64,000 nucleotides of DNA, taken from positions 806,001 through 870,000 of the forward strand of contig CP114122.1 in assembly GCA_029959195.1 (NCBI GenBank), in the 5' to 3' direction. Shown in pieces: positions 2,812 through 39,337 of this stretch. The notes beneath the pieces are model-generated. The model searched no databases. It had not been told where the DNA came from and saw only the letters and a list, made by a program, of their open reading frames with translations. The position numbers and the translations under genes are program-made. Source of the stretch: Dictyophora rubrovolvata (Eukaryota; Basidiomycota; Agaricomycetes; Phallales; Phallaceae). Within the stretch, counting starts at the first letter, position 1; every line of letters starts with the position of its first letter.

Positions 2812-4724
2812 ATGGACACAAGTAGTTTGAATGCCACCTCCATTGCGGAAGAGATATCGGCACTCCAAGCATTCACACAACAACTTCGCTTGTCCCGTTC
2901 AATATCTTGTAAGTCCTTAGCTCTCTCGTGTCGACCATGAGATAAAATTGAGCGATCTCTTAGGCTGTCTTCTTACTCTCATTTTGCTTGAAATATTATT
3001 TACATTCGACGAAGAAGTGAGTCTTCGCACTTATTTCGTTCCCAGCTTAGTTAAACCCTGTTGTTTTTTTCTCAGATAATATACATTTGGAGGTGGTTCA
3101 TCGAGCTTGTTTACTTCTTCGGAGACTCAGTCCAAAGTTTTACAGGCGTCCTTGGTCACTTTTCAAGATCTTCTTTATACAATGCAGATATCTCTCCATA
3201 ATACCAATGCTGTAAGACTTCCATTACTCTTCCAGATAGACTGAATATATTAGTTAATGGACAACAGTCTCATAATATGTAAGTGTATTTCCATCTCCGT
3301 ACAATAACAATATTCTCAACAGCCATTAGTTCCCCCTGCGCCTAGTAATGCTGTAAGTATTTTGTGTTTGATCTCTCCTCTGATTAATCACCATAATTTA
3401 TTCAGTAGTAAGATATCAACCACTGCGCCAACCTGAACTAGCACAGTGAATCTATTAATTTATAGCTGTGTGTTTTTTGAGTGGTACATTAGTTTGTGCG
3501 TAATATTTTTAAAATGTTGTCACTTCCTAACAAGTCAAATATTCCAGCGTTATTGTAGTTGTCTCCCTCCTGCCTAGCAGCGGTCTCTTAGCTATTAGGC
3601 TGGATAGATTGTATGCCTCTAAACCCAGTATGGTGCTATAAAGACCTTGTATGCAATTTTCTAATCAATTTGGTTTTTAGTGCGCGTAATATTGGTTACG
3701 TTGGTGTTCGGTCAGTCATGTCCTCTGTGTTTCTTGTTCAATGCTTTGTTGAAATCAAACCCTGACAGTTGAAATTACTGTGCGAGTCCATTTTAATCTC
3801 GAACATCCCTGATTGTATGACCGCTTATTATAATTCCCAAGTCACAAATGGCAGCCGCACTGTCCATTTTGTCTCATTATTCCCAGACGTACAACTCGAG
3901 TGCTCATATATGCGGTGGAAATACCTCAGAACTTTCAGAGCTACTATGGATCTCTAAAAGTCTCATTATGTTCGTGTTTGAAATATTGTCCAAACATTCA
4001 GGTTAACTGTTATGATATAGGCTTCCATACTTGGTTCTAATTTGTATGTATCCGCTACTAGTACCCCGGGCCTGCGTTGTTTTTGAAACAATTCGACTTG
4101 TGAATAGGTATATATATCGGCATAGCCACACATGCATTTATTCGACATTGTCGGGAAAGGCGATTGATGTGCAGAGTGCAGGCTGTGCGGAGAACCTTCG
4201 CACCGTTCTATATTCTTTTCATCCGGGATGGCGTGGTTTGTTATATCGTGTAAGTTTTATATTGCTTCAGAGTTCGATTCCACCCAAACTCACGTCTAGC
4301 TTTTGTAGGAATTTTTGTATATTTGTTTTACTTGTAATTCCTTTGTCGTATGCTAACAAAAGTTTAGTCGGGGTATTGTGTGGTTTCGTCATTATAACGT
4401 CTACCTCTCGCACAGGTGTTCTGGGTTATGTTGGACCCGCGTACGTTTTTTCCCTATAAATGGTTGACTTGTATAGTTAGATTGATAACCCGTCCACTAC
4501 AGCATAATTGTTGGGATTACATCTCTATCCGTTCGTTACAGTCGCATTTCAAAAAGAAAAAAATTCTAATTTGCTTTTTTGCTCAGAGTTGTCGATTAGC
4601 AATGCTTCTGCACGGTGATCCGGGACATGCGACTGGGGTTTATCAGGTGGATACCAATGAAGTCCATATTGAGAAATTGGTGATAGAAGATACGAATATT
4701 TCGTCAATCTGTACGTCTTTGTAA
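2812..4724 (+). CDS. DUF6533-domain seven-helix membrane protein, copy 1
   Basis: The start is MDTSSLNATSIAEEIS at 2812. The spliced N-terminal domain reads LLTLILLEILFTFDEE, then IIYIWRRPWSLFKIFF and QCRYLSIIPML. This is the DUF6533 pattern (helix, acidic residue, IW, basic pair, W, K and RY). An intron that interrupts the IWR codons is shared with the two copies at 20567 and 24165. Later exons include CVFFEWYISL, SLLPSSGLLAIRL, LFIRDGVVCYIV and the last exon SCRLAMLLHGDPGHATGVYQ. The protein is inferred to cross the membrane about seven times. Its substrate or ligand is unknown. It lies downstream of a DUF6534 gene, an arrangement echoed at 17118-22443. Internal exon borders are approximate, and small breaks in the middle cannot be excluded. 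Confidence 0.75.
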
Positions 4725-5079
4725 AAGTTGAAAAAGATGTCTAGCCTGTCCACTGCTAGCAGCCTTGTATCGAACCTAGAGTACTCAAAACATCACATAA
4801 AAGTTAAATCTTGCATCTGTTTTGATATATCATTAAATTCAGACCTTTTTGATTCTTCTCCAATTGTCGCAAATTGAATCCTAACCGCCTTTTTTTGCTA
4901 AGCGAACCGATCAAGGCCTCTAACAAGCTTTATAAGGGAAACCTACGGACAATAAATCGATTTTTACATATATATTTTGGCAATCGCTTCGTATACCCCG
5001 CGGCAGAACAACAATTGTTCAAGGTGCGGATTGCGCGGAAGATTTTCGCAGCCCTTGATAGTATTTTGATTCAGTCTAA
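4725..5079. other. intergenic, with a transposon-end-like motif
   Basis: No gene is seen. At 4865 the sequence TGTCGCAAA repeats the first bases of the proposed element end at 5080. At about 4907 ACCGATCAAGG repeats a motif found just inside the right end of the element (about 16625). This may be the debris of a second, related element end. Confidence 0.4.
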
Positions 5080-5105
5080 TGTCGCAAAAATCGAAATAGG
5101 TTTAT
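5080..5105 (+). repeat. left terminal inverted repeat of the element
   Basis: The 26-bp end matches the reverse complement of 16668-16693 at about 22 positions. These comprise the first 11 bases, the last 8 (AGGTTTAT) and three in between. Confidence 0.6.
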
Positions 5106-6447
5106 TTATCATTATAAACCTAAAAAAGCTTGTCAGGCGCCGAGGCAATTTATTAACCGTAAATTTTTAACTCAAGGCACCAACAAACCTAAGGACGGAA
5201 TTATTAACTAAAAACTTGGATAATTTTGGGACGAGGTCAATTTTTAAGTCATTTACTGCAACTCAAGGTTAAATATCGGCCGGTTTAGTTTTTGAACACT
5301 CGCTCAAGATAATTAGTATAACGAGTAGATTATTTTATGTTGCTTTGGTTATTATACGACACAATGTGTTAATAAACTTCAGTATGTTCAGACAAGGATT
5401 ATAAAGTCAACGTTTTGTTATTAGATTCTAAATCGCCGCTTATCTATCTACTTTAAACATTTGTGGATTACATAATCACATCCAGCTATCAAAACTTCAA
5501 CGACTAGAACTATAAAAGCGATGTGCAGTGGACCTGAGTGAGCGATGAAAATCCAAGTACCCTGTGAAATTAATTGGATTTATAGATTGAGTGAGTTAAA
5601 TGCATACCTAATCGAATAATATTACGTGCAACGTGATAGTCTAGCAAGGAGTCTACTTGAAAGACATTAATTTTCACCACAGCCCCAATGAGACGGCAAA
5701 TTACTTACCTTACCTCCTGAAAATGAAGCCTGAAAATCTGATAAAATTTCATTAGTATAATTGTGAATTGATAAACATGCACAGGACACATTACCGAGAG
5801 GGAAGAGCTTGAGGCATGAGGATCACATTCTTGTTTTCAAAATAATCGAGCGATGCCTGTGTTTGATCTAGCTTGTGACATAAGCTTGCAAAAAGAGATG
5901 TACGGTGCTACACACAGAAACATCTCCAATGAGCGACGTTGCTCATCAAAAAGAGCCGGTCCGCTAATCAAGTCCAAGTCAAGTATCATGGACTGACACA
6001 CCCAATTTAAATGCGGAAACCTAGCAAAAATAAATTAAACTGAAAGGTTCCAGCCTGGGAGATGAAATGGCACACTTCTTTTTGAAGTCTTTGATCTTGG
6101 GGTTATTCGTTTGGAAAGATTGCTGCAATAGAAATGAGATGCGTAGGAGACTTTCTGATAGTAGAAAAGTGTTAACATACATTAAAATTGCATATTGGAA
6201 CACTCCAATATCTATCCATTCTAATAAAAATTGTCGAGGAATGCTATATAAAATGTATAAATGACTTACTGGGATTGTTCACTGCTGAATCTCATAACGG
6301 TGATGGTATGATAGTAGCAGGAGAAAGGAGAAAAGCGGAGCGTGAAAAAAAAAACTTCAGCCGCTAGAAAGGAACTTGTGATTGGGCGTCTATTCTGAAC
6401 TGTGCTTGAGCCAAATAAACCAAAATTCAAAGCTCAACATTCGTATC
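5106..6447. other. AT-rich left arm of the element
   Basis: No coding frame was supported. The first part carries ATAAACCT-type subterminal motifs. The rest is AT-rich, with short frames in both directions that match nothing recognised. Confidence 0.45.
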
Positions 6448-7100
6448 ATGCCACATTTGACACCTGTTTTCCATCCCCGTTCTCCGGGAAATACTATCAT
6501 TCCTGAGACGGAATCTCAAGTCTCAGTTCAGGACAGTGTATCCGATCATTCCGCCATTTTCCCGACTTCTGAATCAAATTGGGGCTTGGATGAAGGTGGA
6601 GTTGGTCGACAGAGAATGATATCTGAAATCTGTTTAGATCGTATCGGTATGTCTAGCAGCTGATAAATGGATTATCCACTCAAAATATATATAACAGGTG
6701 CTACACCTGAAAGACTGACAAAAGTCTCGAACCGTTTGCAACAACTTGAAAATAATGGTGGATTTCAGCATGGTACCAGAGAGGAAAGCAATGTACATGC
6801 CATGGTACACTAATTGTCAACACTGATTAACGTTTGCTTAACTGAGTTTTATTATAGGATATCCCTCCCAGTACTGAATCAAATATCAGACGCGAAGCAG
6901 AAGAAAAACAAGACAACCCAACGCTCATTGCATTGGAACTCATAAAAGAGTTGAGACACACTGTAAAGGACTTGCGAGCGATGTATGAGATAATGCAGAA
7001 TAATTATGAAGATCGGAAAAAGGAGGAAGTGATGCGACTAACAATGTATAATGATATCTTACATAGTTTTACTAGTCGCGATTGCTGTGAACTTTGCTAG
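6448..7100 (+). CDS. small coiled-coil protein carried in the element, unknown function
   Basis: Three exons join cleanly. Exon 1 (6448 to about 6645) starts MPHLTPVFHPRSP and ends at a GTATGT donor. Exon 2 (about 6699-6804) reads ATPERLTKVSNRLQQLENN. Exon 3 (about 6859-7100) reads from DIPPSTESNIRREAEEK to HSFTSRDCCELC and then stops. The product is about 180 residues, with an acidic Ser/Thr/Pro-rich N-terminus and a C-terminal helix with coiled-coil character (LIALELIKELRHTVKDLRAM). No family is recognised. It is convergent with the gene at 7217-9279, and both lie within the proposed element. It could be an accessory protein of the transposon or captured host sequence. Confidence 0.55.
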
Positions 7101-7216
7101 TCGACTGGACATATAATCAAATTGTCATTACGTTATGTTGTAATAGAATTTGGTCAAACATATATGTATCGAGGACAAGGAAGTCGGATCCTAAAAAATA
7201 CTAAACTAATCCATGT

Positions 7217-9279
7217 TCATTTTTTTGCTTTAGCCTTCCCTTTTCGACCACCGTCTTTTCTAACATCCCTAATAGCATCTTTCTCAGTCACTGGATTCGA
7301 ATTAGTCCTTGATCTCAATCTGCGTGTGTAAGTTTCAGTGTCGGCTGTATCGTTGCCACGTTTTTGCCCACCATGGGCACGTGTAGTTTGTGGCATGCTT
7401 GGTTTATCTGCAGCAGGAATGCAGCCATAAACGGTCATGGCTGAGGGTCTTGTGCTTGTGGATGGACTAGCTTGAGACATTATGGAAGCCTGAGATCCAG
7501 CCGAAATATGAGGTTCAGTGATGGGAATACGAGATCCAGCAATGGGAATACGAGATCCAGCAATGGGAATACGAGATCCAGTGGTGGGAATACGAGATCC
7601 AGTAGACATACGAGATCCAGTAGGAGCAGCTGAGGGCACAGCAGGAGTTGAAGATGTTGTGGGAAATAAGGTGGAAGTTGGAGAAGCCGGGAGTTCAGAA
7701 GAAGCCGGGAGTTCAGGAGAAGCCGGGAGTTCAGGAGAAGCCAGAAGTTCAGAATGTTCAGGAGAGGCGGGGGCTTGTGGTGAAGCGCTGGGGGCTGGAG
7801 GTGCAGTAGAGGATGTCACAGTGCTTTTGTTCTGAAAGTGTCTTTGGATGATTTGCTAAAGTAATGATCTGAATATATCTTACTCTAGATATTATATGAG
7901 GATGAGGCCTAGGTACATCCGTTTGGGGCTGATCATTCTCATTCTCATTCATTTCCCTCATTTCCCGGCTATTTTCATCATCTTCGTAATCCGAGCTCCG
8001 TTCTCCCATAGCTTTATCTATTTCTTCTTGATCTGAATTAATAGAGGAGTCATCGGCATTTTGATGTTGAGGATATAATAATCGATTGGCCCATTCAAGC
8101 ATACTTTCTAGCTGCAAATGCTTACTGCGTTTTGCACAAAGCTCCATGTAGGTATTAAAACACTTGTGATATGAAATGCCTGGCTCATAATCCGTTTTCG
8201 TGGCATTGAAATCATCCTCAGTAAGCGCGCATCAAAGCTAAGGGTCGCAAATCAACTTAGAATATAAGAACCCGTAATAAATACTTGGAGCTTACAATCG
8301 TCACAACAATAGCTAGCATGGTAGGAGTAACCTCTTTCAGTCCCCACACAATCCCAATAGGTTTTCGACCACCATATTTGCCTCTCACTGTCTTGAAGTC
8401 TTTTAAACCACGTATTCCGTAATAAAGTAATAGATATGTCTGAGAGAAATCTTGTAAGTAACTGGCATTCTTCTTTTAATATAAGACTTACGCGAAGTAT
8501 GACCATATTATGGAATAGTCTGGTATGGCCATCGCCAGGATTTACTTTGAAGTCCTCATAAGCGATTGGTGCCAGCCAGTGAAAGCTTCCGGTCTTGCCT
8601 TCTTTTTTCGACCAACCATTTAGCTCAAGCCTCACCTCTTCCTTCTCAATTGCAAAACCTGAACCTTCAAATATCATATTCAACCCATTCCGTATATGAT
8701 TGACGGCAGTTGCTCGTTGTTGATTCATTCCTTTGATGAACTGTATATTATTAATAATTAGGAGTCATCAATGTTACACGAATAAATACCTTGGATTGAA
8801 ATCTTACATCGCCAAAATGGCCATGTAATTCTTCTGGGACTAATTCTTTGAGATCACGCAACTGGCCTTGCATGATCATGTCATCACGATACCGTCTGCT
8901 AGGCCTGTACCCTGGATCTTCTTTGACTGTGAAAGCAATTTTTTGATTATGAAGCCACAGTGATACAGTGAGAACATATTGTTTGCCAAGTGCATTATAT
9001 CTATCACTGTCTTTTGTAGGGAGTTCTTCTTGTGGAGGCTGGGGCGTCTTTCTGCTCTTCTTCAAAAACTTTAGTTTTGCTTCCAAATCCAGAATTTCCT
9101 GCTCGCATGCGATCATCTCTCTTGATGACATAGCTATATCGGCCCTGAGATCACGATACATCTAAAAAGGGTTAGTGTGGATAAATTTATATCTCAAATC
9201 TTACCGCAACTACTTCACTCAGCTCTGTCACATCATCATCATCATCACTGAGGAGTGCTGGAACAGTATATTGTGGCAT
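7217..9279 (-). CDS. acidic, repeat-bearing protein carried in the element, unknown function
   Basis: The start at 9279 reads MPQYTVPALLSDDDDDD and joins a coiled coil (MYRDLRADIAMSSREMIA, EQEILDLEAKLKFLKKSRK) at 9161. A globular part follows, with YRDDMIMQGQLRDLKELVPE, FIKGMNQQRATAVNHIRNGL and GERQ-type Trp-rich sequence around SERQIWWSKTYWDCVG. Then comes FNTYMELCAKRSKHLQLESM and a long acidic stretch. The C-terminus is Pro/Ser/Ala-rich with tandem repeats (GSRIPIA and ELPASP units) and ends in a basic tail, GGRKGKAKAKK. Introns of about 45-85 nt separate five or six exons. The middle resembles uncharacterised proteins I associate with transposon-rich regions of mushroom genomes, but I cannot name a family. 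It could be a second element protein or a passenger. Confidence 0.6.
7521..7622 (+). repeat. 21-bp tandem repeat inside the acidic gene
   Basis: The unit ATGGGAATACGAGATCCAGC plus A recurs four times and then once in shortened form. On the minus strand it encodes the repeated GSRIPIA peptide. The unit length is a multiple of three, so copy-number change keeps the frame. Confidence 0.85.
7686..7757 (+). repeat. 18-bp tandem repeat inside the acidic gene
   Basis: Four units of GCCGGGAGTTCAGGAGAA with small changes encode ELPASP-type repeats on the minus strand. The frame is preserved. Confidence 0.85.
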
Positions 9280-9483
9280 TTTTATGTTCAGTAAGTTCAG
9301 TAAATGAAATGAAGAAGTTGGAGGGATAAGCAGTCTGGGCGTTGTCATGTCACACGTTACTCTTTGACTTTAAAGTATGAGGATACAAAGACACTTCAAA
9401 AGAGTAAAAACCCTCAAATGGCACATTATAAGAGGGTCTCATTTAATTGGATATAACAAAAACATATTTATATACTATAACCA

Positions 9484-12400
9484 TCAATCACTGCTGCTTC
9501 TTCTAGAATTCATTGGTTCTGTATCTCCATTGTATATGTTTAGATGATTGGAGGTATCGTTAGCAGACTGTTGTTGCCACAGTGGTATGGAAGGGTTTGA
9601 CAATGACTGTGAAGTAGTGCGACACATAAGCAGGCCCCGAAGCATCCCCCCTGCCGACGAGTGTGTATGAGATAGAACAGGAAGACTCCATTTGTTAACC
9701 TGCACAGACAATGACAAAGATTAATACGACAACGCCATGAAAAGATAATGGCCAATCACGTACCCCGCCACTTCCGGCAGTTCCAGATCCTACAACAACA
9801 TTGAACACTCTCAGCTTATCCTTTTTAGCATGAACACAGCGCCACTTGAACTCGGCTTCCCTTTGCATCTCTAAACCCATACCCGGAAGGACTTTGGTGA
9901 CATGAGCAAAGACCATGGCAGGTGGACCATTCGTTACAGTTCCTTGATCAATGGCACTATGATGAATTCACAACGTTGAAGCAATTAGGTGTTACAGGGG
10001 CTGGAGAAGCATTTGCAGAGGCGAACGGTGAAGGAACTTGAGGGAATTGAGGGGAAGTAACAGTCCGCATGATCGACATTATATGGGATGCTGTGGAGGG
10101 AGCTGCGCTGGAGGTCTCTGACGGAGTACGGCGCGAAGTTGTGGAAGCAGAGCTGATGGTTACGTTGGAAGGAGCAGGAGGATTGACAATGACCTGTCAG
10201 ATTGAAAGAGCTAGACACAATAATAAAAGGAATGATAAGTGTCTTGACTTATGAAGTCTGAAGCACCTTCTGCCCGAGCATCACTGAGAATCTCAGGTTT
10301 CCTCCTCCCGAGACTTCGCAGTCTAAACCAATTCATCACCCCTTTAGCCAAGAGAGTCGACACGCCAGTGTTGGTGGTGATGCCATTGAACAAGGCTCGA
10401 GGTAATGTAGGATTGTGGATACCACCCAGCAGTGGACTGAGCAGTGCCTCAGGAATATTATTGATGGGTATATCAGCCTTCACAGTACCACCACTGGTCG
10501 GCATAGGAGTAAGAGTCAGAGTCGGTGGTCTTTTGCCATTCTTCGCCTTCACCTGCTCTTTCTGGTTCTCTTTCTGGTTCTCTTTCTCTTTATTGGAATG
10601 CGAAGTATCCCGAGATTTGTTAGTTTCGACGGTGACGGAGTGGTTCTTCCATTCTTTGATAGTCCTATATCAAAGCGCCATCAGCCTCAGAGATACTAAA
10701 AGAAAACACAAAAGTTACTTACTGACTCAAAGGCTCAACCATCAAACTTAAGGTCTTTCGCCTATTCTTCGCCTTCTTATCATCTTTCTCCTGCTCAGAT
10801 TCTCTATCCGTCTTCGTATCGGTCCCGTTGACTTTGAGATTTTCTTTCCTGCTTGGGACAAGAGCCGACGTGGAAGACGACATGTCATTATTCTTCACTC
10901 CATTGGGAACCATCTCTTCTCCGGGTATGTCAGTAACGCTACTGCTTGCTTTCTTTCCAACACCAAACCCAAACCTATCCACTGACAAATCTCGACGGAG
11001 TCTCTTGCCACCACTTCCTCCAGAGTTTGTTGATTCCGCATTGCCACCTTTACCAGCTTTGCGCGGCATAGTTTGAGGACTGGGCACTTGAGCAACATGT
11101 TCTCCAGGATGAATGGTCTGATCTGGACTAGGTTGAGACAACGTGGGTTGCTGTTGCTGTTACTGTTGAGCATGTTACGAGGGAGGAGTAAATAGAGCCT
11201 CAAATGATGAAGGCATAGGATGCGCGGCTGTCAGCATCTTTGGAGACTGTTGGGCAGACGTCTCGAAAGCTGTCTTATGCGCCTTAGGTGTGGCTGGTGA
11301 ATCTTCAGCTTCAGCGACCGCTTGAGGAGCAATTGTAGTCGTCATGATGTCAGAAACAGCCTCTTGTGGACGCTGAGGCATAGGAACTTGAGGAGAGGCA
11401 GGGATGTCCTCTGCATACTCAAGTTGAAGAGTATGATGTTGATTGGTCTTCTTCCGCCGGCTACCAGTCTCTCTATCCTTGTCCAGAGTCTTGGCCCATT
11501 TTTCCTTAAACTTGGAGCGTTTCGACCGTGTAGAGCTCCGGTCATGTTCAGCAGTAGATGTAGCAGGTGAAAGGGTATCATTCGCTGCCGCCGAGTCGAC
11601 AAAAGATTCGGCTTCTGGATTAGAACCCATTACGATGGCACTAGCAACGGCATGCCGTGGTGTAGGTGCATTTGTAGCAGATGAGTTGTAGTATTCCTTG
11701 GTCTGGGACTGTTGCTGTGAGGCGGTGGTGTGTATTTGGCGTTGATAAGCCTGCTGCTTCATAGTCTGTTGCTCCAATGTGATGCGTTCCAATTCAGCAG
11801 TGCTTTGTTCGAATAAGTGCTTGTACGCTTCGAGCCATCGATGCTGTCCAAACTGGCACGGTGTTTGGGATCCGGGATGAGCATTTGGGATAGCAAATCG
11901 CGAGCGTCAGTGGAGATATAATCCGGGAAGGTAAGAGGGGTATTGATGATATACTTATAGAGGAGATTGATGTTGTCACCTTCCGGATTGGCTGGGTCAT
12001 CGTCAAAGGGTAAATACCCAGCCAGTATGGCATAGAGGATAACGCTGCAAGACCAAATGTCGACTGCGGAGCCAACATAGAGCCCTTCGGAAATGACCAA
12101 TTCCGGAGTCGCATAACATGGAGAACCGCATGATGTTTGCATGTCTGCATGATGTTCAAAGCGATTGGCGAATCCAAAATCAGTGATGATAACATTTCGG
12201 GAGCGGTCGAGTAATAAATTTTCGAGTTTGAGATCGTGATGAACAATTTTCTTGGAATGGATATACGAGACACCACTAATGAGCTGCGCAAATAGCTTGC
12301 AAGCGTCTTTTTCTTTCAAGAAGTGATGCGCAAGGATGTGGTCGAAGAGTTCACCTCCAGAGGCATATTCAAGGATGATACCGATGTACTTGTCTGTCTC

Positions 12401-12806
12401 GATTACATCGTATAATCGTACAATATTTGGATGTTTAAGAAGCTAAAAAAAAAAGTATTATTACAAATGAGCAAATAATAACAAAGAAAACAAACTTTAC
12501 CCTAAGGACCTCAATCTCTCATTCAACTTTCGACAATCGCAGATGGTTATCAACATTGCCTCGTCTTATCAACTTGACAGCAACTTCTTCGCCCCATTTA
12601 GAGTGAAGACCCAGCTTCACTTTTCCAAATTCACCCTTGCCCAAGTTTGCAAGAGGAGATAGGGGCCGAACTTGGGTATCGTCCGTCGTGGATGTGCAGC
12701 CGCAAATGTCACAGCTGCAGGATGGGAGTAAACGTCCCAATAAGTACCACTGCTCTCTTTTCCTTGCTCTCATTCTCGTTCGTCCCTTTGTGGGGAGGAT
12801 ACCCAA
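9484..12806 (-). pseudogene. decayed Kin4/Frk1-type serine/threonine kinase, intron-bearing, inside the element
   Basis: Kinase subdomains are clear. They are the glycine loop LGKGEFGKVKLG, AVKLIRRG (lysine about 12570), an intron at about 12440-12500, HPNIVRLYDVIETDKYIG, the catalytic region, DFGFAN, and the Kin4-specific insert DDDPANPEGDNINLLYKYI. The C-terminal tail keeps VMNWFRLRSLGRRK and the KA1-like VTKVLPGMGLEMQREAEFKW. Kin4-type kinases of yeasts regulate mitotic exit and the spindle-position checkpoint. This copy looks dead. The catalytic HRD is HHD and the APE motif is TPE. In-frame stops lie at 12519-12521, 11175-11177, 11160-11162 and 9968-9970. A frameshift near 11850 separates RASLDSI from QHRWLEAYKHLFEQ. 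All four stops can arise from CGA or CAA by one C-to-T change. The retained introns point to DNA-level capture. Confidence 0.82.
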
Positions 12807-12949
12807 GTGGACGGAAAAGCGGAACAGTGAAGTTTACTTACTGTCACGTGAAGTCAACTGAGCTCACTGCTCTGCTTTCAGGCATGAAAACACAGTATAA
12901 TCGATAACGTCGATCCCTCATACACAGCAGTCGTAAAGTATTAGGACAC

Positions 12950-15900
12950 CAGCGATTTTGCCAATACTGCAACAAAGTAAAGAAATACCATCGCTTCGAT
13001 AAACATCAAGAGGCATGCAGAATCAAACACTTGCGCAACAATGTGCTTCGGACACCGACCCTGGGTCTGAACGATCGTATGGGTACATTTGGTCTATCTC
13101 AATATTCTCAAACTAAATTATTCCATATAGAGCGATATCCAGGCTCACATTTACAAGTATCCGAGGGTGTAGGTGTCGATCGGAACACGTGGTCTGTTGG
13201 TATGGTAGATGACGTTTATATGCATGGTAAGCAGCGTTATCATCCATGCTTATGCAAAATTTTACCAAGTAATTTCTGGATCAAATATTAGATCAAATAT
13301 TAGATGACGAATCAGCTTCTACTCCCCCTGTAACACCATCAAGTTCAGATGAATATATTGAGATTATACATCATCCGCATAGCAAACTACACGAGCCTAC
13401 AATCATCCCACTAGACACAGAACAGTTTCCCAAAACAAATTCCGACAAACCATCAGTTTCTCAGCACACTCCTGATCCTGAACGGCCATGGGCCCCTTTC
13501 CACACACACGCAGACTTCGAGTTTGCCGAAATCGTAGTGACTGGCTGTTTAAAGAAGGATATAACAGACAGGATTCTCAATGGTATTCACGGCGGATGGG
13601 CAAAGAACTCCTCATTAACATTCCGAACACATCAAGATGTTCAAGACTCTCTTACCTCAGCCCGAAAATTTATCCAGCAAGTATGAATTGATTTCCTTGT
13701 CTGATCGTTGCCGTATGTCTGATCTATTTGAAGTTTACCGAAGCTGAGGTTTCGCATACCTTTCAAGGAAAAACTCAAACTTTCAAGTTCCTATATCGAG
13801 ATCCGTGGCAGTGGATCATGAATTTAGTCCAGGATCCAACTCTGTCCGAAGATATTTCATGGTTTCCGGTGAAGAAGTTCCTACATGTTGGCGAGGAAGT
13901 CACGCGAATATATGATGAACTTAATTCAGGCGATGCGTGGTGGGAATATCAGGTATTTACAATTTTGTTGAGAATCATATCATATTGCTTTAACATTATA
14001 ATTTAGGATTCTATTAATCCCGACTCAGAGCATCCACACTGTTATTTCCCGCTGCATATATGGCTTGATAAGAGCAATGTGTCCACTAATAAAAAAATGC
14101 ATCCAATTATCTTACACGCATGTGCACTTCCAAGCCAAATACGGAATGCATCGGGAAATGGAGGGGGCATATTAATTGGTTACATGCCCATCGTAATTTT
14201 CTTTCAACATCGATTATTATTTTTACTAATTAGATTATATGGTTTAGGTTGGCGATCCAGCTGATTCCCCTCATAATGAAGATGACTCGCTCTCGTCTAT
14301 TGAATTGGCACAGTACAAACGTGAAGTCTATCATAAAATTCTTAGCATAATTCTCCGGTCTCTCAAAAACTGATCGATCTTTGGCGAAGCAATTATGTGT
14401 GGTGATGGGACGATCCGTATTATTTTTCCCGGCCTTTTGATCGCTTCTCTCGACTTAGAAGAGGCTTATTCCTTCTGTGGAACACGAGGCTGTCGTGCGA
14501 ACTATCCTTGTCCACGCTGCCTCGTTCCACAACAAGAACTACATTCCATAATCACCGCGTATCAAGAACGTACTGATACAAGCATGGCCGAGATCTTCAC
14601 GAAAGCAAAATCGCTGCAGCAAAAGCCTGCTGAACTTTTATTGAAAAATAATGTGCTTCATTTGATACCAGTAAGATCGTGACTATTCTATTGAAGGATA
14701 ATTAACTCTCTTTAGAATTGTTTTTGGAAATTGTGTAGATCCTGTCCTTATCATGCATATTCATATGATATTTTACATTCTTTTGACTCGGGCGAATGGG
14801 GGAAACACCAATGGCCCCTGCTGTTGAAAGTCTTGAACGCTAGTGAACAAGCACAACTATCTCGAAAGTGAGTTTCATTATTACTTTGGTATATTATCAT
14901 CTAACTCAACGTCGAGCATAGCATGGCACAAGTACCACCTTGGGCCAGATTAAAACATTTTGATCATGTCACTAAAATAGATTATACCGACGGAAACTCT
15001 TTTCGCGACATTTTAAAGGTATACATGGTTCAACACAATTTTTGCATGATATTCAAATGAATCATTATTCCAGTGTATTATTCCATGTCTCGCTCCAATT
15101 CTTCAAGCGCAATCTCCCATTTTTCAAGCAATTCGTTGGTGTGGCATATTTCGTGCGGTTCTCAGTCTCAAAGTTATATCTGAACGTAATATTTTATATC
15201 TGGAACAAATTGTTATACCCGAATATCACAAGCTTTGCACCGTGAGTCTGAATTAATTCTAATATTCTAGACGAATTAACAATGTAAAGGATATCACGGA
15301 ATTACATGGAAAGTCATATAGCTATCCTAAACACCATATGATGCGTCATGCTTTAGCCGATTTGCGTCGGAAAGGATGTATTGACGGCTATTCAACCCGT
15401 CCTGGTGAAGGTTTCCAGCAAGAAGTGAAGCAGGCATATCGCCAAACAAACTTCAAAAGTGTTGAAGCTCAGGTAAAATATCTCATCTATACTGTTCAAA
15501 GATTAACCAAATAACTTCTATGGTTAGATGACCAGAATCGATGAAAATCAGGAGGCGATAGCCCAAATACGAATGTTTGTCGATCAATTCGAAAAGGAGC
15601 GCAACTCCGCGGATGACGAAAACCCCGTTGATGAAGACACAGCGCGGGAGAAGCATGAAATCGAAAATCATTATAGCTTAGGCTCCCCTTCTGCCACCAT
15701 GAAATTATCCGAGGTAGAACAAAATAATTCACCAGATTCCAACTTCTCTCACTTTGCATCAAATCTTCTGGAGTTTATGAATGAGATCCCAGATGAACAG
15801 AGGCCGTCGATAAATCATAATACTACTGTGAGTGCCGCGTATATCTGTTTCTGTATGAACATGATCAATTCTTGTTTTCAGATTCAACCTTTCAAATGTC

Positions 15901-16313
15901 TCTACATTACCTTTCGGTCAATGGAAGACTGGCGACCATCAAAGGACATCCTCCGTTGCAATACTGAATTCCATGGACACCCACGCTTTGATTTTGTCGC
16001 AATAAACACAAACCCAATTTCATTTGCTCAGCTTTTATTCATTTTTACCTGCAAAGATTCGAAGGACCAACAATGTGACCTTGCACTCGTGAAAATGCTT
16101 GTACCATCAGTCTTGAAGTCAGTTCGGTGGGAAGGAATGCAAGCTTTTGAAGAACAAGACGTTCAGTTCATTTGTCTCGAATACGTCATTCGAGGCTGTC
16201 ACTTCATTCCCTTTTTTTCTCCAAGCAAAAAGAAAGTCTATTTTCTAAATGATGTGGTTGATAATGACACTTTTGTACGTTTTTTCCTAGATTCGCAGGA
16301 GTTATATCAATAA
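12950..16313 (+). pseudogene. Plavaka-type transposase with at least one in-frame stop
   Basis: The frame opens with a C2H2 finger, CQYCNKVKKYHRFDKHQEAC (about 12960). A disordered region (about 13300-13640) follows. The Plavaka core then reads FTEAEVSHTFQGK, FLYRDPWQWI, YFPLHIWLDKSNVSTNKKMH and GGILIGYMPIV. Next come MCGDGTIRIIFPGLL with CPRCLVPQ, then DLRRKGCIDGYSTRPGEGF, and a C-terminal domain with SMEDWRPSKDILRCNTEFHG that stops at 16313. About eight short introns are seen. This order matches basidiomycete Plavaka transposases (CACTA/CMC superfamily), which cut and paste the element. The TGA at 14371-14373 sits just before the MCGDG motif where relatives continue, so this copy is probably inactive. 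The exact start codon was not found. The ends at 5080 and 16693 would be its substrates. Confidence 0.85.
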
Positions 16314-16667
16314 AGATCCATATTTTTATTCGTCATTTTGAATTCTATGCATTTCTTTATATTTTCCCACCGAGGTGAATCACTAATGAACCGCTCGTCT
16401 TTCCCAGTTTCCACCGCTCGTTAAAATCCTTCTTCCGCTTTCTCCTTCTCTTCCCCTTCCTTTTCTCTCATTTCTTCTCCAGTTCATATCGGTACTGATC
16501 GCAAGTCGTCGTCTCACAGCATCCGCTCGCATCAAGCCTCCGGCTAAGTTACCAATTCAATCTCTATCCGCAATATTTAAATCAAAGTATATTGCGGAGA
16601 AGAGTAATTAAATCAATATAACTTACCGATCAAGGTTTATAAAGCGTTTATAAACCTCAAAAGGATT

Positions 16668-16693
16668 ATAAACCTGTTAAGGTTTTTGCGACA
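16668..16693 (-). repeat. right terminal inverted repeat of the element
   Basis: It reads as the reverse complement of the left end, with AGGTTTAT followed inward by several more TTTATAAACCT-like copies (16632-16675). The stretch 16314-16667 between transposase stop and terminus is noncoding and AT-rich. Confidence 0.6.
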
Positions 16694-17117
16694 AACGATG
16701 ACGCCACCCGGTACTTCCCCCAAGTCCTCATTCACCGTTTCTGAAAGCGGCGAAGATTTATGATCGAGACTCCCGACTTCCGAATTTTTCCGTATGTTTA
16801 AATTCCCTTTTCTGTTTCTTACAATTCTATGTTCTTATGATAAATTATTTTCTTCTGCTTATTGTTTGCACGGCGATCCGGGACATATTTCTAAATTAAA
16901 TCAATGAAACTCGTCGTGTAGAGCCCGAGGTGTCGATGATATTATGACTATTAGTCAATGGTTGGCCGTTACTGTAACGGTGTAGAATGTTTTTAGTAGT
17001 CTTCGTAGTAAGTTACATGCTACATGCAATTAGATACAAATAATAAACGCATAAAAATCCACAGAAGTCCTATATGTTTCTCTTTTATCATATTCCAAAC
17101 GTCTTTCCTGCTTTCCC
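16694..17117. other. intergenic, with orphan fragment of a DUF6533 last exon
   Basis: Bases 16867-16886 (TGCACGGCGATCCGGGACAT) match the last exon of the DUF6533 genes with one change and encode LHGDPGH. A stop follows shortly after (about 16909). No other exon of that gene is visible nearby. The rest shows no coding signal. Confidence 0.55.
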
Positions 17118-18846
17118 TTAGACTCTGCCGTTTAATTGAAATCCGTTGCGCTCAACTTTTAATTGCTCGTACGATTTGTCAACTAAGTATTCTCCATGCG
17201 AAAAGCGGTCCACCCTGCCAGACTGCCTCGATACATTGAAACCAGATAAAGATGCGGAGGGTTCGGTCGGCATAACAGCTGTGTTATCGTAACGAGCCCT
17301 AAGGTTTGCTCTGGAGTTGAGCCTATACATGAAAATTTTACCAGAAAACAGAATAAAAAGAAATCGAGTACTAAGGCTAGACGGTGACTTACATGGCAAG
17401 GAGACAATTGGAGTATACTTTATCAAAAAGTCAGGAATTTTTGTTGAAGAAGGGGCAGATAGATTCTTACAGTGGGGAAGAACGAAAGAAGCACCGGTAT
17501 ATATTTGAGTGTTGGGTTTGCTGAGGTACTGTGACAATCTCTCAGTAGAGTTCTATATGAGGAAAGAAGAAAAAGCCCACTGTGGCCAGGATTACTGCAT
17601 TGGATACGACTGTTAACAATCCAGAGGTAAAGGTATATAATGTGAGTTTATTAAGTAGAGTTTGTGTGCTGTGCGCCAGGGAGGGTAGATGTGTGAGTTC
17701 GGGGTCCGGGGACTTACATAAATATAAAAACAAAAGCTACTAACCTTTTGATTTCACTACGATTAATGTAGAAGAAATGAAACATGGCAAGCGTGATGAT
17801 TACGTCTAGTATTAAACCGATCGAGAGGCTTGCATTTGTGAGTTCCACTGCAATATTAGCCTTCGCTGCTGTGAATTCCCCTACAGATAATCTGGGCTCT
17901 GTGTGGGGTTACTGTTGTGATTATTCGGGTGGGGACACATACTTAAGTCCGCTTGCGGCTTGTAAAATTATGGATCTTTGTGAGTTTGTCTCTAGTATTA
18001 AACAGAGTATGGAAGAGCATACCTAAAACGAGAGCTGTTCGGCGTGACCATATAGATGCCAATAATCATCATCTAACGACTCCTTAATGAAAAAATGACT
18101 TGCCAGTGTGTGTCAGTGTAAGAAATAGCTTCAAACCGGAATGTTATAAACATAAGCAGAGATGCATGATACGTTCCATTACCCACCAGCAGACCAGAAA
18201 GCGCATAGCTCCTCTGCACTGATCAGTGATCAATCAGTTTATTTTTGTATGTGAGAGAAGGTTATGATGTTACATACTGTAGAAGATTCTTACAGCGTAA
18301 AATCTAGGCAATTAATCGAGAATGAGAATCGTCAGACGAAAATCTAGACTCACAAGTGGGTTAAAGTTACAGCTGCTTCCTTTTCTCAAATCAGGAATTA
18401 TTTTAATGTTTCGGTATGTTTCACATACTGATGCCCATGGTTCGGCTTTGAAGCTCCTAATCGATAATGAGTTCCGGGGTAGGGATAACTTCAAGTTCAT
18501 CAGGACACAAAAAAGACATACCAGACTATTTCAACCAAAGCTTTAGGGCTGCCGATAGAGCTTATCAAATAGTGATAATTTGTATGTGAGGTTAGGAAAA
18601 TAAGAAGAAACCCCAGGATCCTGCCAAAAATAGTAAATGAATAAACGAGAATTTGCTCCAATTAAAACGGAGTCCGGACTGCGTAAAGTCTTACAGTGAC
18701 AATGATACAACCAGCTTGAGGGAAATTGGCTCTTGGTTCCAGTTATGACAAAAGTTCCAGTACTGAAGAAGCAAGAAACCGAAGGCAACGAGGCTGATTT
18801 CGTTTCCAACGAACAAGGCTCCAAACATGTCGTCAGCTGCTGTCAT
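17118..18846 (-). CDS. DUF6534-type seven-helix membrane protein
   Basis: The start at 18846 reads MTAADDMFGALFVGNEISLV. Splicing continues FGFLLLQYWNF, KLVVSLSLILGFLLIFL, TSHTNYHYLISSIGSPKAL and VEIVWSFKAEPW. Later exons give VGEFTAAKANIAVELTNASL, IGLILDVIITLAMFHFFYIN, LLNKLTLYTFTSGLLTVV, VILATYLSKPNTQIYTG, and ASFVLPHLYSNCLLAM joined to LNSRANLRARYDN. The order, the seven hydrophobic segments and the closing YSNCLLAMLNSR fit DUF6534. One 26-nt exon near 17400 carries TYSNCLLAM. The exons between about 18050 and 18440 are not fully resolved. The gene is divergent from the DUF6533 gene at 20567. Its function is unknown; a receptor or transporter-like role is only inference from topology. Confidence 0.83.
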
Positions 18847-31094: not shown

Positions 31095-34000
31095 TCAAAA
31101 CATTTGTCCACGACAATTGGCAGCACCACAGAGACATTTACGGTGTATAGCTTGTTGCTTATGTGGAGAAGGGCCAGCACCCTGCAAAGTTGCAAAAAAA
31201 TATTATTATATCATAAGCTTTTACAATCCCCAAATAAAAAATTTGTGCACAGACCACTTTAACTGTTTTGTCTTCTAACTCTTCATCTGACATTTCTTCA
31301 TCATCATCACCTTCACCAAAATAGGCAAAAGTAATCTCTTCTCCTTTTTGAATATCGCGCGAAGTAAAGATTGTTAGTGCGGGCTTTCGCACATCAGGTT
31401 CATTCACATAGGTGGCTGTTATTTGACAATTAGGGTCACAAGAGTGATTCTTTTAGTGCTCATTAGGTTCCGTAGGGTGAAAAAAAAAATTGAAACAAAT
31501 TTCACCAAAAATCGCGTGAACTGTGGGTGTTTTAAATACGTGTCATCTTTAGTCAGGATAAGATCAAAACTCACATTTCCAACATGAAAAGCATCAATTG
31601 TGTATGTATTACTCCTTTCTTCATCTTTGCCTTCATCTTTGCCCTTATTAACGTCTTTGTCCAGAGATCGGAGATGATAAAAATCAACATCAAATAAATA
31701 AGTCCGACCGTAACGATCATACAACCTGCATCACAAGATTAGCCAGTGAGTATTCCTACATTGGTTACACTTACTTCCCCCGCTCATCCGCCTCCGCTTC
31801 TAAAATTATTTCTCCGGAATATATACCTAAATAAGTGCCCCGGGGGATCTTTTCTTCCGCAAATACACCTACCCAATATTCAGACATGAGCGGAATACCA
31901 TGAAATGTATAACATATTTATTTGATATCTTACCCCAACCTTTACTTTTCGTGAGAACAATTGAAATACGATGTTTACGACCATTCTGAACCACCTTTTA
32001 TGTAAAAATAACCGCACGCAGTTCAGTAGTTGTGCGTGAAGCAAATTTTCTAAAGCGCTTACTCTATTCATGCATTCCTCCGAACATTCACAAGCGTCGT
32101 TACACTCGAAAACTGGATAATGTGGATGCAACAATTTTTCTTTCTTGTACAAAAAACCCTTAACTTCACCACCAGTCCAAGCCATTTGTCGTTGGACGCA
32201 AGCACAAGTTTTGGATTTGGGATCACAAGGCCCAACACAATCACATCCTTGAAGCAATTTCTTATCCGACCTCGGCACACCTTCACCGTAAACAATCCTA
32301 TTAGTATAATAGAATTCCCAAGGAGGCGTAACCGGCCCATTTTTACGACCGATGATAGGAATTTTAGGGGCCAGGGGCTCGTCATCCGCCGTATTGTCCT
32401 CTATCACTGCCTCAAAAATGTATTTCATTTGAGGGTTAAAAAGATAGTGAGGAGGAAGACGGTTAATCATGTCGTGCAATTCCGTAGGGAGCTTCTCAGC
32501 TGGCCATTTGATTGAGGCAACTAATCGGTCACTGTAATCCGGAACTGGCTCAGTGTCACCAGCAGATATCTTGCTGAAGTCTGGTTCCTTGACAAGCGTC
32601 GGACGTTTTGGAAGCAGTTCGTTGTCTGGAGTTTTGGGGGTGTTCGAAGTCTATAAAATAAACAGTCTAGACCTTCCTGTTAATGTTAATGGTAGATTGA
32701 AAACGTACGGATTCATCGGAAGATACACAAGGAGCGTGAAAATTACCGCGTAAATGCTCTTCTTCATGCTGTATGTTTCTCGATAAACGATATCATTTTT
32801 AGGTAAACGAGAAACGAGAAATACCTTCACTAATGAATCATCTTCCAGGGGCTAATATACAATTATCAAAATCGAAGTAGAATCTCAAAAGTATGTAACT
32901 AACAGTAATAAGCTGAGAAGTTTCGCGTTCGGAAGTGTTTCGGTCCGCATCAATTTGTAATTCAGCGATGGGATCTACCAAGTTTGTAATGACATCCTCA
33001 TTTTTAGGGTGTATCGGCGAAGGCGGAGATTGAGAAAGGGTTTTGGCCATTGGCGACTGTGGGGGTTCTAGAGCACGACGCTCATTTGAACCGTCACTGA
33101 AATTTTGATTGGTCTCCCTTGAAATGACCAGGCCAAGTGTTTCTTCCACTAGCCTTTCGGCAGGTGAATCGTGACCAAAACTAGAATGATCAACAATCTC
33201 TGCATCCAGTTGTATGGCAGACTGAAACGCAGTTGCCTCCGATTCAATAGTTTGGGAGAGTCCACTGCTCGACTGTTGTTCTTCAGGATGATTTGACAAA
33301 GTAGAATGAACCGATGGCGGTACTAATTGAGGGTCGCCCGCAGGTATATTTACCGAAAATGAGGCTTCGTTGTCATAAGATACATCAGTCTCACCCAAAG
33401 ATCTTTAATAAACTCACGGGAATGAAGTCCTTTGAGAGGTAAGGGTTCCGGGTTCACGTCAATAATAATAATATCATCTTCATCGAGATCTAAAGTTAGA
33501 TCAATAGCGTCCGCTTGACTTGTACCATTCCTCGGTGGTTCATTAGCTGTCGAGATAGCCGTAGGCTCGTCTTCGGAATCAGAGGAGATCGAAATAATAT
33601 CCTGCTGAGTCAAATTCATAAATGATTCACGCCTGCGTTGCTTGTCCGAAGAAGAACCTGAAGAAAGCCCCCATAAAATATACATCATTGTAACATGGAT
33701 GACATGAACGGTCACAAACCTGCTTTGGTTAGGTTCCACGAACCATTGAGACTCGACGATGAAGTTTTCCCTACTTTTCGCATGAATACAACTTGCATTC
33801 ATTTTTTGAAAAAAAAAGGGGTAACCTTTGGGTAAACTCCGAAAAACAGACAAACGTTTCCTATTATTCAACAAGGATGATGAAGGATATGAAAGAACTG
33901 TGTCCTTGTTTGGCGGCGCTTCTGAAGAAGACTCGCTATAGAGGTCTGAAGCCTTTCCCTTTCCTTTTTGACTTGCACCTTGAAAGGGGGTAACCTGACC

Positions 34001-36867: not shown

Positions 36868-38229
36868 TTATGCTCCCGGAGATCCGGAAGGCATTCCCAA
36901 TAATGAGCTAGGCGTTTGAGCCTGCATAGAGTATTGACGGCGTGTGTGCACCGCATCCGATACAACATTATTATCATCCGAAGCTGAACTACTGCTGTAA
37001 CGGCGTGATGACATGTTAAGAAGCAAAGATGCAGCAGTGTGCTCATCTCCCGACCAATTTTTCGGGGGCTGTGCCGAATTTAGCGAAAGTGGGCTCGCGC
37101 TTCTTGGTATACCATATCCTTTCGAGGTGAACTGAGCAATTTGATAGGGTGATGTCGGAGATGGCAGTAACACTGGCGATGTCGTGACATTGGTCGGATT
37201 CAGGATATGGGAGATTGTATAGCCATGTGCCGCGTACGCCGGACTAGGAAGAATGTTGGGAGAGCAGTTTACCGAGGATGGAACGGAACGAGAATGGGTT
37301 ACAGAATCTGAAGAAGACCGAGATGTGGTAGACGGCGTGAGTCCGAGAGGCGGAGGAAGAGTGAGACCCGGCAGGGAACTCTTCGCCATCGCTGTGGGAG
37401 CAAAGGGCACAGACTGAGGAGGCGAAGGTAATTGAAGGATAGGCGAAGAAGTGGGTGAACACGAGAGTAATGAAGATATGGAAGGAAGACGGGTTCTGCC
37501 CGTGCCGGCATTAGCATGGTCGGGAACGACATCCGGTTGTATTGAAACGTTCGTACGACCATAATACTCCGTAAATTCATCGTCAAAATCGCTTTCAGGA
37601 TCGTCGACAGGGTCATCCTCCTCCACCTCCTGGACTTTCCGCTTTCGCTCCAAACCACGTTCACGCTCATGCTCTACCGAGCAAGCTTCCCCCCGAAGAG
37701 AAGAAGAGAGCGATGATAATGTTGGCGCTTTGGTTAATGGCAATAGCTCGCTCCCGCATCTCTGACACAAACCCTGTTCGAGATCCTTCATCTTATCAAC
37801 CATACTGCGCAAATAATCGACAGTTCGAACTAAGATCTCGAGCTTGAATTCTTTATCTTCTTTATCCTTCTTCTCGTGTGCCCTTTCGTTAGGAACCAGC
37901 TGGCGCAAGGCAGCAAGGGCTTCATTGATCTTCTCTCTCCTCCGTTTCTCAATGACTGAATGGTTTGTCTTTCGTAATTGTTCTCTAGCGGTCTTGGATA
38001 AAGGGCCTGAGGGTTTTCGACCTCTTCGACGAGGGGCTACCGTCGCAGGAGGAGAGTCTTGAATAGCTTGTCCGTCAGGGACAGGCGCGACCATTGATAA
38101 GTGGAATTCGGCCGAAGACTGCGATGGTTCTTTGAGAGCTAGCTCCCTTAGGCGCTTAACTTTACGAGGAGGATTGTAGTCTTGTTGTGAAAGCGAAGCG
38201 GATGACGAGGAAGAGGCAGCCGGCGGCAT
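36868..38229 (-). CDS. bHLH transcription factor with AT-hook-like basic segment
   Basis: The gene is a single open frame of 453 residues without introns. Residues about 68-75 read RRRGRKPSGP, an AT-hook-like segment. The bHLH basic region is TNHSVIEKRRREKINEAL, where the H, E and R positions that contact an E-box (CANNTG) are present. Helix 1 is ALAALRQLVP, the loop is charged (about 15 residues) and helix 2 is FKLEILVRTVDYLRSMVDKM. A CxxC pair (GLCQRCGS) follows. The remaining 250 residues are Ser/Pro-rich and probably disordered. The domain resembles fungal Esc1/DevR-type regulators, but I am not sure of orthology. It acts as a nuclear DNA-binding regulator. Its targets are unknown. Confidence 0.88.
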   Translation of the reverse strand: MPPAASSSSSASLSQQDYNPPRKVKRLRELALKEPSQSSAEFHLSMVAPVPDGQAIQDSPPATVAPRRRGRKPSGPLSKTAREQLRKTNHSVIEKRRREKINEALAALRQLVPNERAHEKKDKEDKEFKLEILVRTVDYLRSMVDKMKDLEQGLCQRCGSELLPLTKAPTLSSLSSSLRGEACSVEHERERGLERKRKVQEVEEDDPVDDPESDFDDEFTEYYGRTNVSIQPDVVPDHANAGTGRTRLPSISSLLSCSPTSSPILQLPSPPQSVPFAPTAMAKSSLPGLTLPPPLGLTPSTTSRSSSDSVTHSRSVPSSVNCSPNILPSPAYAAHGYTISHILNPTNVTTSPVLLPSPTSPYQIAQFTSKGYGIPRSASPLSLNSAQPPKNWSGDEHTAASLLLNMSSRRYSSSSASDDNNVVSDAVHTRRQYSMQAQTPSSLLGMPSGSPGA

Positions 38230-39337
38230 GGAGGTGAATCAAGTTAACGATGGTGATGGTGGTAAGGAAAAATGGTGAGGGAGAGAGCTGACAAGCGTAG
38301 ATATTTCGAGGGCTGAGTTTTGAATATAGTGGGATAGAGCATGCCCCTATTATTTCGGTCGTGTGCCTTCTTAGACCCTCAGGGTTTGAAGGTACAACGT
38401 GCGCGTGCTGGACCAATCAGCGTCCGTTACCATAAGGGTCGTGTGCGACACAGCAAACGTTTTCGCCCTGGCCCAAGGCGAAATCAAGACTTTCTATTTT
38501 TGTGAATAGAAAGATGATGTCTTGGGAGGGGGTCGACTCGGAGCTCGCAAGGATAAACATGGATCAGTGATCCCGGTTCCCGCATACGAAAGGCCTTGTG
38601 AATTATGGAATGATAATAAAAATATAACTCTCAATGCTACCAATTAAATAAAATTGATCATTTCTGTTATAAAAAGGAATTTCGATGAACACACGTTCAG
38701 CATGCATTTCGCAAAAGATCATATGAGTGTGGGATAAGGAAATGGGCTTACCGGTTCATGTTCAAAAAATGGAACTGTTCCGATAATAATGGGAATGCAA
38801 CTACTCGGCATTTTGAGGTGAATCTCTAAACATAATCCCCCGTCAGCCCGACATATCGTCACTATTAAGACTCTAAGTAACGCACGTGTGTTTTGGTTTT
38901 CAGCCTATTTTCCTAGTATGGACGTTCTCAGCGGCTTTGTGGCATCTGGTGACCTGCGACCATTGTTTCCCGCCTTCGGTGAAATAGCCCAGTCGAGATT
39001 GGATATTATTGCATGTAGATAAGGAGGAAGTCACCAGTGTTTCAAATCTCAGCCGGGAGCAAATAGAAGGCAGGGGATGTACCATACGATCATTGATCAC
39101 TAGCACACTAGCACCAGTATGGCAGTGTAGCCACTCTAGGAAATTCAATATCAATCTGCCAACTATCAAACGCTCAGACGGGGATTATTGACAACTGGAA
39201 ATGAAATTGGGAGCTTTTAGACAGCTTTCGCTTGGTTTTCGCTTTCCGCGATGGTTCACGGCGCGCTGAACATTTGAAACGATTACGTAAACAAGTTACT
39301 TACGTAAAGTAACTCAGTGAACGAAGTCGAAAGCGAA
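38230..39337. other. shared upstream region of the bHLH gene (-) and BRF1 (+)
   Basis: No coding exon was found in 1.1 kb between divergent starts. A palindromic E-box CACGTG at 38883-38888 is a candidate site for bHLH factors, possibly the neighbouring one itself (inference). Short ORFs around 38900-39190 overlap on both strands and match nothing. Confidence 0.5.
38883..38888. promoter_or_regulatory. E-box CACGTG between bHLH and BRF1 genes
   Basis: A perfect CACGTG palindrome lies about 650 bp upstream of the bHLH start. Such a hexamer is expected by chance every few kb, so this is only suggestive. Confidence 0.25.

Follow-up and report, generated by a model that had tools for sequence, protein, structure and literature searches.

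We report here that the 64,000-nucleotide stretch of DNA analysed (hereafter the window), located at C6:806001-870000 in an 11-contig genome totalling 28,239,528 bases, contains a complete PlavakaA-type transposon at window positions 5080-16693 (C6:811080-822693), and that the copy of a host kinase gene carried by this element is a pseudogene. Comparison with the host gene indicates that the captured kinase is a mosaic, its core having separated from the host line recently and its 3′ end long ago. With moderate confidence, we favour a history in which an old capture was followed by replacement of the core with host-gene sequence, by CpG-type decay and then by a recent spread of the element.

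The element and its relatives

The following features were delineated (window positions; the C4 relative is an older element on contig C4, described below):

5078-5079, no strand: left target duplication AA, from equal 2-bp flanks
5080-5105, plus strand: left inverted end, TGTCGCAAAAA-N7-AGGTTTAT, from inverted-repeat and pattern searches
6446-7100, plus strand: small accessory gene of several exons with approximate borders, aligning to the C4 relative
7217-9279, minus strand: accessory gene of several exons with approximate splice joints, aligning to the C4 relative
9528-9827, minus strand: 3′ end of the captured kinase, apparently old and differing by about 19% from its host counterpart (dS 0.67)
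9828-12769, minus strand: apparently young core of the captured kinase with introns 1-4, frameshifts and stops (dS 0.09 versus the host gene)
12770-12802, minus strand: more diverged 5′ edge of the captured kinase (weak evidence because of its short length)
12908-16313, plus strand: Plavaka transposase gene of several exons, from PF18759 and reading frames
16668-16693, minus strand: right inverted end, from inverted-repeat and pattern searches
16694-16695, no strand: right target duplication AA, from equal 2-bp flanks

The inverted ends that an earlier note on this DNA had placed at 5080 and 16693 are borne out by a 26-nt inverted repeat (5080-5105 and 16668-16693, 85% complementary), which heads the list of 119 pairs for window 4500-17300, and by the AA duplication around it. 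With up to 3 mismatches, the pattern TGTCGCAAAAA-N7-AGGTTTAT occurs in the window at the two element ends only, where 0.03 occurrences are expected. Genome-wide, with up to 2 mismatches, it was found at 74 places and the reversed pattern at none. These other ends are mostly paired around short elements, rather than standing alone as the earlier note had said they should if its reading were wrong. Many of the short elements measure about 0.7 kb and have the same ends (e.g. C2:2818644-2819348, C3:476580-477327 and C11:659605-660321), and they are probably miniature forms mobilised by the same transposase. In a count that took in 24 loci, 11 of the 26 listed pairs of short-element ends are flanked by a 2-bp target duplication, for an expectation of 1 in 16. 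Nine of the 26 pairs, including one of those 11, use an end with two mismatches; the remainder give 10 of 17.

The further copies that the earlier note had called for do exist. Three near-identical elements are found, at C6:811080-822693 (the window element), C7:393358-404944 (minus strand) and C7:704052-715674 (plus strand); the two young copies on C7 are about 99% identical to the window element, and the target duplications that flank them are AT and CG. Aligning the three revealed 99 substitutions and 4 indel events. An old, decayed fourth element, with the duplication TA, lies at C4:2659564-2672790. The termini TGTCGC..GCGACA and a 2-bp target duplication (AA, AT, CG, TA) are thus present in all four full-length elements. 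Pieces of the kinase are also carried by all four, and searches that scored the best candidates only met no kinase-free full-length relative with these ends.

According to its defining passages in PMC12730594, the PlavakaA group (CMCT clade) has 5′-TGT..ACA-3′ ends and a 2-bp target duplication. The window element shows both, together with a PF18759 domain, and its assignment to PlavakaA rests on the domain, the ends and the duplication. Cut-and-paste movement would follow from the family, the ends and the duplications. A placement in CACTA/EnSpm in the narrow sense was rejected: the same passages give CAC..GTG ends and a 3-bp duplication for that group (PMC12730594), where we find TGTCGC and 2 bp.

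The Plavaka transposase proposed from the reading frames is confirmed by two PF18759 blocks above cut-off, at 13692-14006 (9.4e-12) and 14374-14682 (1.3e-7). A search with the transposase protein retrieved 74 relatives at E <= 0.001, and those shown carry PF18759. The window transposase has an in-frame stop that is absent from both C7 copies; one C7 transposase has a stop in its last large block, and in the second the frame is uninterrupted in all blocks examined. The genome holds at least 33 matches to PF18759, counted by exon. The best of them (C6:897030-898061, minus strand, 1.6e-115 over the whole profile) belongs to a different lineage from the window element.

The backbone of the C4 relative aligns to the window element in blocks that are 65-82% identical. 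Between their transposases, dS is 0.60 and dN 0.14 (771 codons, 9 blocks), from which it would follow that both element lineages have long evolved under constraint. The two unknown genes of the earlier note correspond to two gene-like stretches (plus strand, about 6446-7100, and minus strand, about 7217-9279), both of which align to the C4 relative. The accessory gene at 7217-9279 gave, by block against C4, dN of 0.31-0.35 and dS of 0.78-1.24; with a dN/dS of about 0.25-0.46 in three blocks, it appears conserved between the two lineages. No relative of its protein was found at E <= 0.001 among 1669 candidates. Elsewhere in the window, Pfam matches mark host genes with Pre-SET (31880-32650, minus strand), helix-loop-helix (36868-38238, minus strand), TFIIB/BRF1 (40047-41093, plus strand), BCS1-type AAA ATPase (58370-59116, minus strand) and BAG (61028-63211, plus strand) domains.

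The captured kinase and its decay

The donor is an intact gene on contig C11, open through six exons and coding for 1172 amino acids. Its product has a Pkinase domain (1e-72) and a KA1 match at residues 1126-1164 (22.6 bits versus a cut-off of 23), and several of its 120 listed relatives are named CAMK/CAMKL/Kin4. With its kinase domain, its C-terminal KA1 and its Kin4-named relatives, the donor is a Kin4-type kinase. Its nearest proteins are P0001, from an environmental contig (88%), and P0002, from Clathrus columnatus (75%), which points to a stinkhorn-like fungus as the probable source of the DNA. An oxysterol-binding protein gene is located directly upstream of the donor.

The window sequence 9528-12802, on the minus strand, aligns to C11:378607-381890 with 93.6% identity over 3263 aligned bases, and keeps host residues 74-1087 together with introns 1-4. 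An intron-containing copy of a host gene inside the element and an intact donor elsewhere are what defines a transduplication. The proposal of a transduplicated, intron-containing Kin4-type kinase is therefore supported by introns 1-4 and by the C11 gene, which is also the intact Kin4 with the same introns that the earlier note had asked for. An intact kinase at this place, which in syntenic relatives would have told against a capture, is not what this genome shows, the intact gene being on another contig. The C-terminal KA1-like region that had been claimed for the element is absent: the copy stops at host residue 1087, and KA1 spans residues 1126-1164.

Frameshifts, stops, HHD in place of HRD and the lack of KA1 rule out a working kinase today. 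Read in the host frame, the window kinase is interrupted by five in-frame stops, and six indels are identical in all three young copies: one intronic, two in frame and three frameshifting (1, 10 and 2 bp). Since these six are shared by the three copies, the kinase would have died before the copies spread; the sharing suggests that decay had begun by then.

The spectrum of changes points to the way in which the gene decayed. Relative to the host, 192 substitutions are common to all three copies; 130 of them are C-to-T or G-to-A changes, 83 of these at CpG. Among changes of the C-to-T type that are not common to all copies, 31 of 42 are at CpG. The observed/expected ratio of CpG is 0.71-0.73 in the element kinases versus 1.06 in the host gene. 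RIP acts at CpA, and it is disfavoured as the main source of decay by the predominance of CpG among these changes, both shared (83/130) and not shared (31/42). Decay of putatively methylated CpG fits better than RIP because the C-to-T changes lie mostly at CpG and not at CpA.

A mosaic of two ages and its possible origins

Leaving CpG changes aside, 74 of 2870 core sites differ between the host gene and the element, against 33 of 283 in the 3′ zone. None of 1000 shuffles reached the change point, which lies at host position 381591 and delimits a core of about 2.95 kb. Between host and window element, dS amounts to 0.094 for the core (908 codons) and 0.67-0.69 for the 3′ zone (78-85 usable codons). 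The latter is close to the transposase dS of 0.60, which suggests that the old part of the kinase dates from about the time when the element lineages split. Within the 3′ zone, dS is 0.57 between host and C4 and 0.65 between window element and C4 (85 codons), and the 3′ end of the window kinase thus appears to match the C4 copy in age. Some sites are identical in P0001 and P0002 but different in the host; of these, the window element has the host state at 26 of 27 in the core and at none of 3 in the 3′ zone. The 5′ edge, with 4 differences in 20 sites, goes in the same direction as the 3′ zone but is too short to rely on. The host gene itself was considered as the mosaic partner and rejected, as its identity to P0001 is no lower in the 3′ zone (74/79) than in the core (816/919).

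The C4 relative carries its kinase pieces in the same slot, between the accessory gene and the transposase, and in the same orientation as the window element. At ten residues derived in the host, its kinase has the host state at 4, the ancestral state at 3 and another state at 3; with only 4 of 10 in the host state, the C4 kinase would have left the host line before the window core did. In detail, the slot holds a fragment of the oxysterol-binding gene fused to the Kin4 3′ end, a second Kin4 fragment from the middle of the gene, part of a BAR-domain gene from C5 and about 120 bp from a locus near C4:187 kb that has no Pfam match. The oxysterol-binding, Kin4 and BAR pieces are all on the minus strand of the element, and the order of the first two is swapped relative to the host. 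The oxysterol-binding piece may date from another time, its pS (0.235, 63 codons) being lower than that of the kinase pieces (0.427, 190 codons). Seen as a whole, this cargo (C4 element positions 4469-5899 and about 8216-8709) comprises parts of three or more host genes and of an additional, fourth locus, and a 217-codon open frame extends from the end of the kinase into the oxysterol-binding sequence. The slot is interrupted by an insertion of about 2.3 kb (element positions 5918-8202), a 95% identical copy of which is found downstream of Kin4 (C11:383866-386141); this insertion is probably another transposon.

An old capture, with a later overwriting of the core by the host, is the simplest explanation for a single slot, a single orientation and two ages. 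In this history, a PlavakaA element would have taken a piece of the host Kin4 into the slot between accessory gene and transposase, around or before the time when the window and C4 lineages parted, and most simply by copying host DNA during repair of a break within the element. The route of uptake proposed for Pack-CACTA elements of plants, in the passages of PMC13317346 that deal with it, is aberrant excision of neighbouring copies; here, repair on a host template seems likelier, because the transposase and both ends were kept. In the window lineage, as the mosaic suggests, ectopic gene conversion from the resident Kin4 would then have overwritten about 2.95 kb of the kinase, so that older sequence survived at the kinase end. 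The kinase would next have decayed without selection, mainly by C-to-T changes at CpG, and lost its frame; finally, as the shared lesions show, the element spread to at least three places with the dead kinase as a passenger.

Other histories have to be weighed against this one. Inverted ends that happen to surround an ordinary cluster of host genes, or an error of assembly, have next to no probability, given identical borders with different flanks and 2-bp duplications at three places on two contigs. We regard as rather doubtful, though worth serious thought, that Kin4 was captured twice independently, the window lineage having taken an allele whose 3′ end had already diverged (a recombinant, or one from another lineage), so that no conversion took place in the element. 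Such a history requires the same gene, slot and orientation twice, and the host 3′ end looks ordinary (the identities to P0001 given above), so that a strange host allele is not indicated. It does account for the fact that, in the 3′ zone, window element and C4 are not nearest relatives: sites there group host with window in 35 cases, host with C4 in 36 and window with C4 in 23, which counts against one shared capture (in the core, the corresponding numbers are 57, 10 and 5, which places host and window element together). The C4 element shows that uptake from several loci can recur, and the pN/pS of 0.239 with no stop in 78 codons in the 3′ zone of the window element fits a long stay in a living gene. 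At the base level the joints of the slot differ, 139 and 106 bp beside the window kinase being unmatched in C4 or in the rest of the genome.

The same pN/pS raises the question of whether the kinase was selected cargo for much of the element's history and was lost only recently, which we consider quite improbable. With neutrality over the whole path between host and element, none of 2000 simulations reached a ratio as low as that of the 3′ zone, whichever of three spectra was used, and, as mentioned, kinase pieces are present in 4/4 full-length elements found. However, the known copies are dead. When the simulated path was constrained for its host half but neutral for its element half, 64 or 35 runs in 1000 gave the ratio of the window 3′ zone, and 532 or 292 in 1000 that of C4. 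Selection within the element is therefore not required, since neutrality over half of the path fits C4 readily and the window element marginally. The pN/pS of the core is also below full neutrality (2 of 300 simulations), as would be expected if the host half of the path was constrained. A useful kinase in the element at some time is possible. It is improbable, taken as a whole, that the cargo slot of this CACTA-like element repeatedly takes up host genes, that the living Kin4 rewrote the stolen copy and that this copy once worked for the element. Returning to the single old capture with later overwriting of the core, we retain it as the reading that we favour.

Gene capture by Plavaka in the light of known systems

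Plant Pack-CACTA and MULE-derived elements are usually non-autonomous. The element described here differs from these plant systems in being fungal and in having its transposase within the same element. It resembles them in carrying pieces of host genes, in some cases from at least two genes, within inverted ends (passages on captured sequences in PMC13317346 and PMC4858842); in relatives of rice, some MULE-derived genes join pieces of two or more parental genes (same passages, PMC4858842).

Within its own group, it has in common with the PlavakaA elements of PMC12730594 the Plavaka transposase, TGT..ACA ends and 2-bp duplication. The cargo mentioned in the relevant passages there is a TET/JBP gene, in PlavakaB only (PMC12730594), whereas the window element holds a captured host kinase. 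Among fungi, transposons are known that multiplied a housekeeping gene into inactive copies; in Pseudocercospora fijiensis and its relatives, the gene that a hAT element took up and amplified is histone H3 (PMC6710886). As far as the passages on hAT-H3 go, both cases are fungal transduplications in which the amplified copies were inactivated by mutation and an intact donor was kept (PMC6710886). They differ in that hAT-H3 has hundreds of copies and RIP (PMC6710886, same passages), whereas here a Plavaka element with three young copies holds a multi-intron gene and, unlike hAT-H3, shows CpG-type decay and a mosaic that appears to be of two ages. Helitrons with captured genes occur in Pleurotus ostreatus, according to the relevant passages of PMC4289320, and are likewise DNA transposons capturing genes in a mushroom-forming fungus; they move by rolling circle (PMC4289320), whereas the window element has the inverted ends and duplications of a cut-and-paste element.

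Gene capture by fungal transposons is thus already known, and the window element is of interest for its readable history and not as a new class. In the titles and abstracts found in open-licence literature, no Plavaka element with a captured host kinase is described. The element extends gene capture to Plavaka, a widespread and little-studied transposon group of mushroom-forming fungi, and its donor, copies, borders and order of events are all legible from one genome. If the mosaic reflects gene conversion, a living parent gene can rewrite its stolen copy, and this would bear on captured genes that look young and host-like long after their capture.
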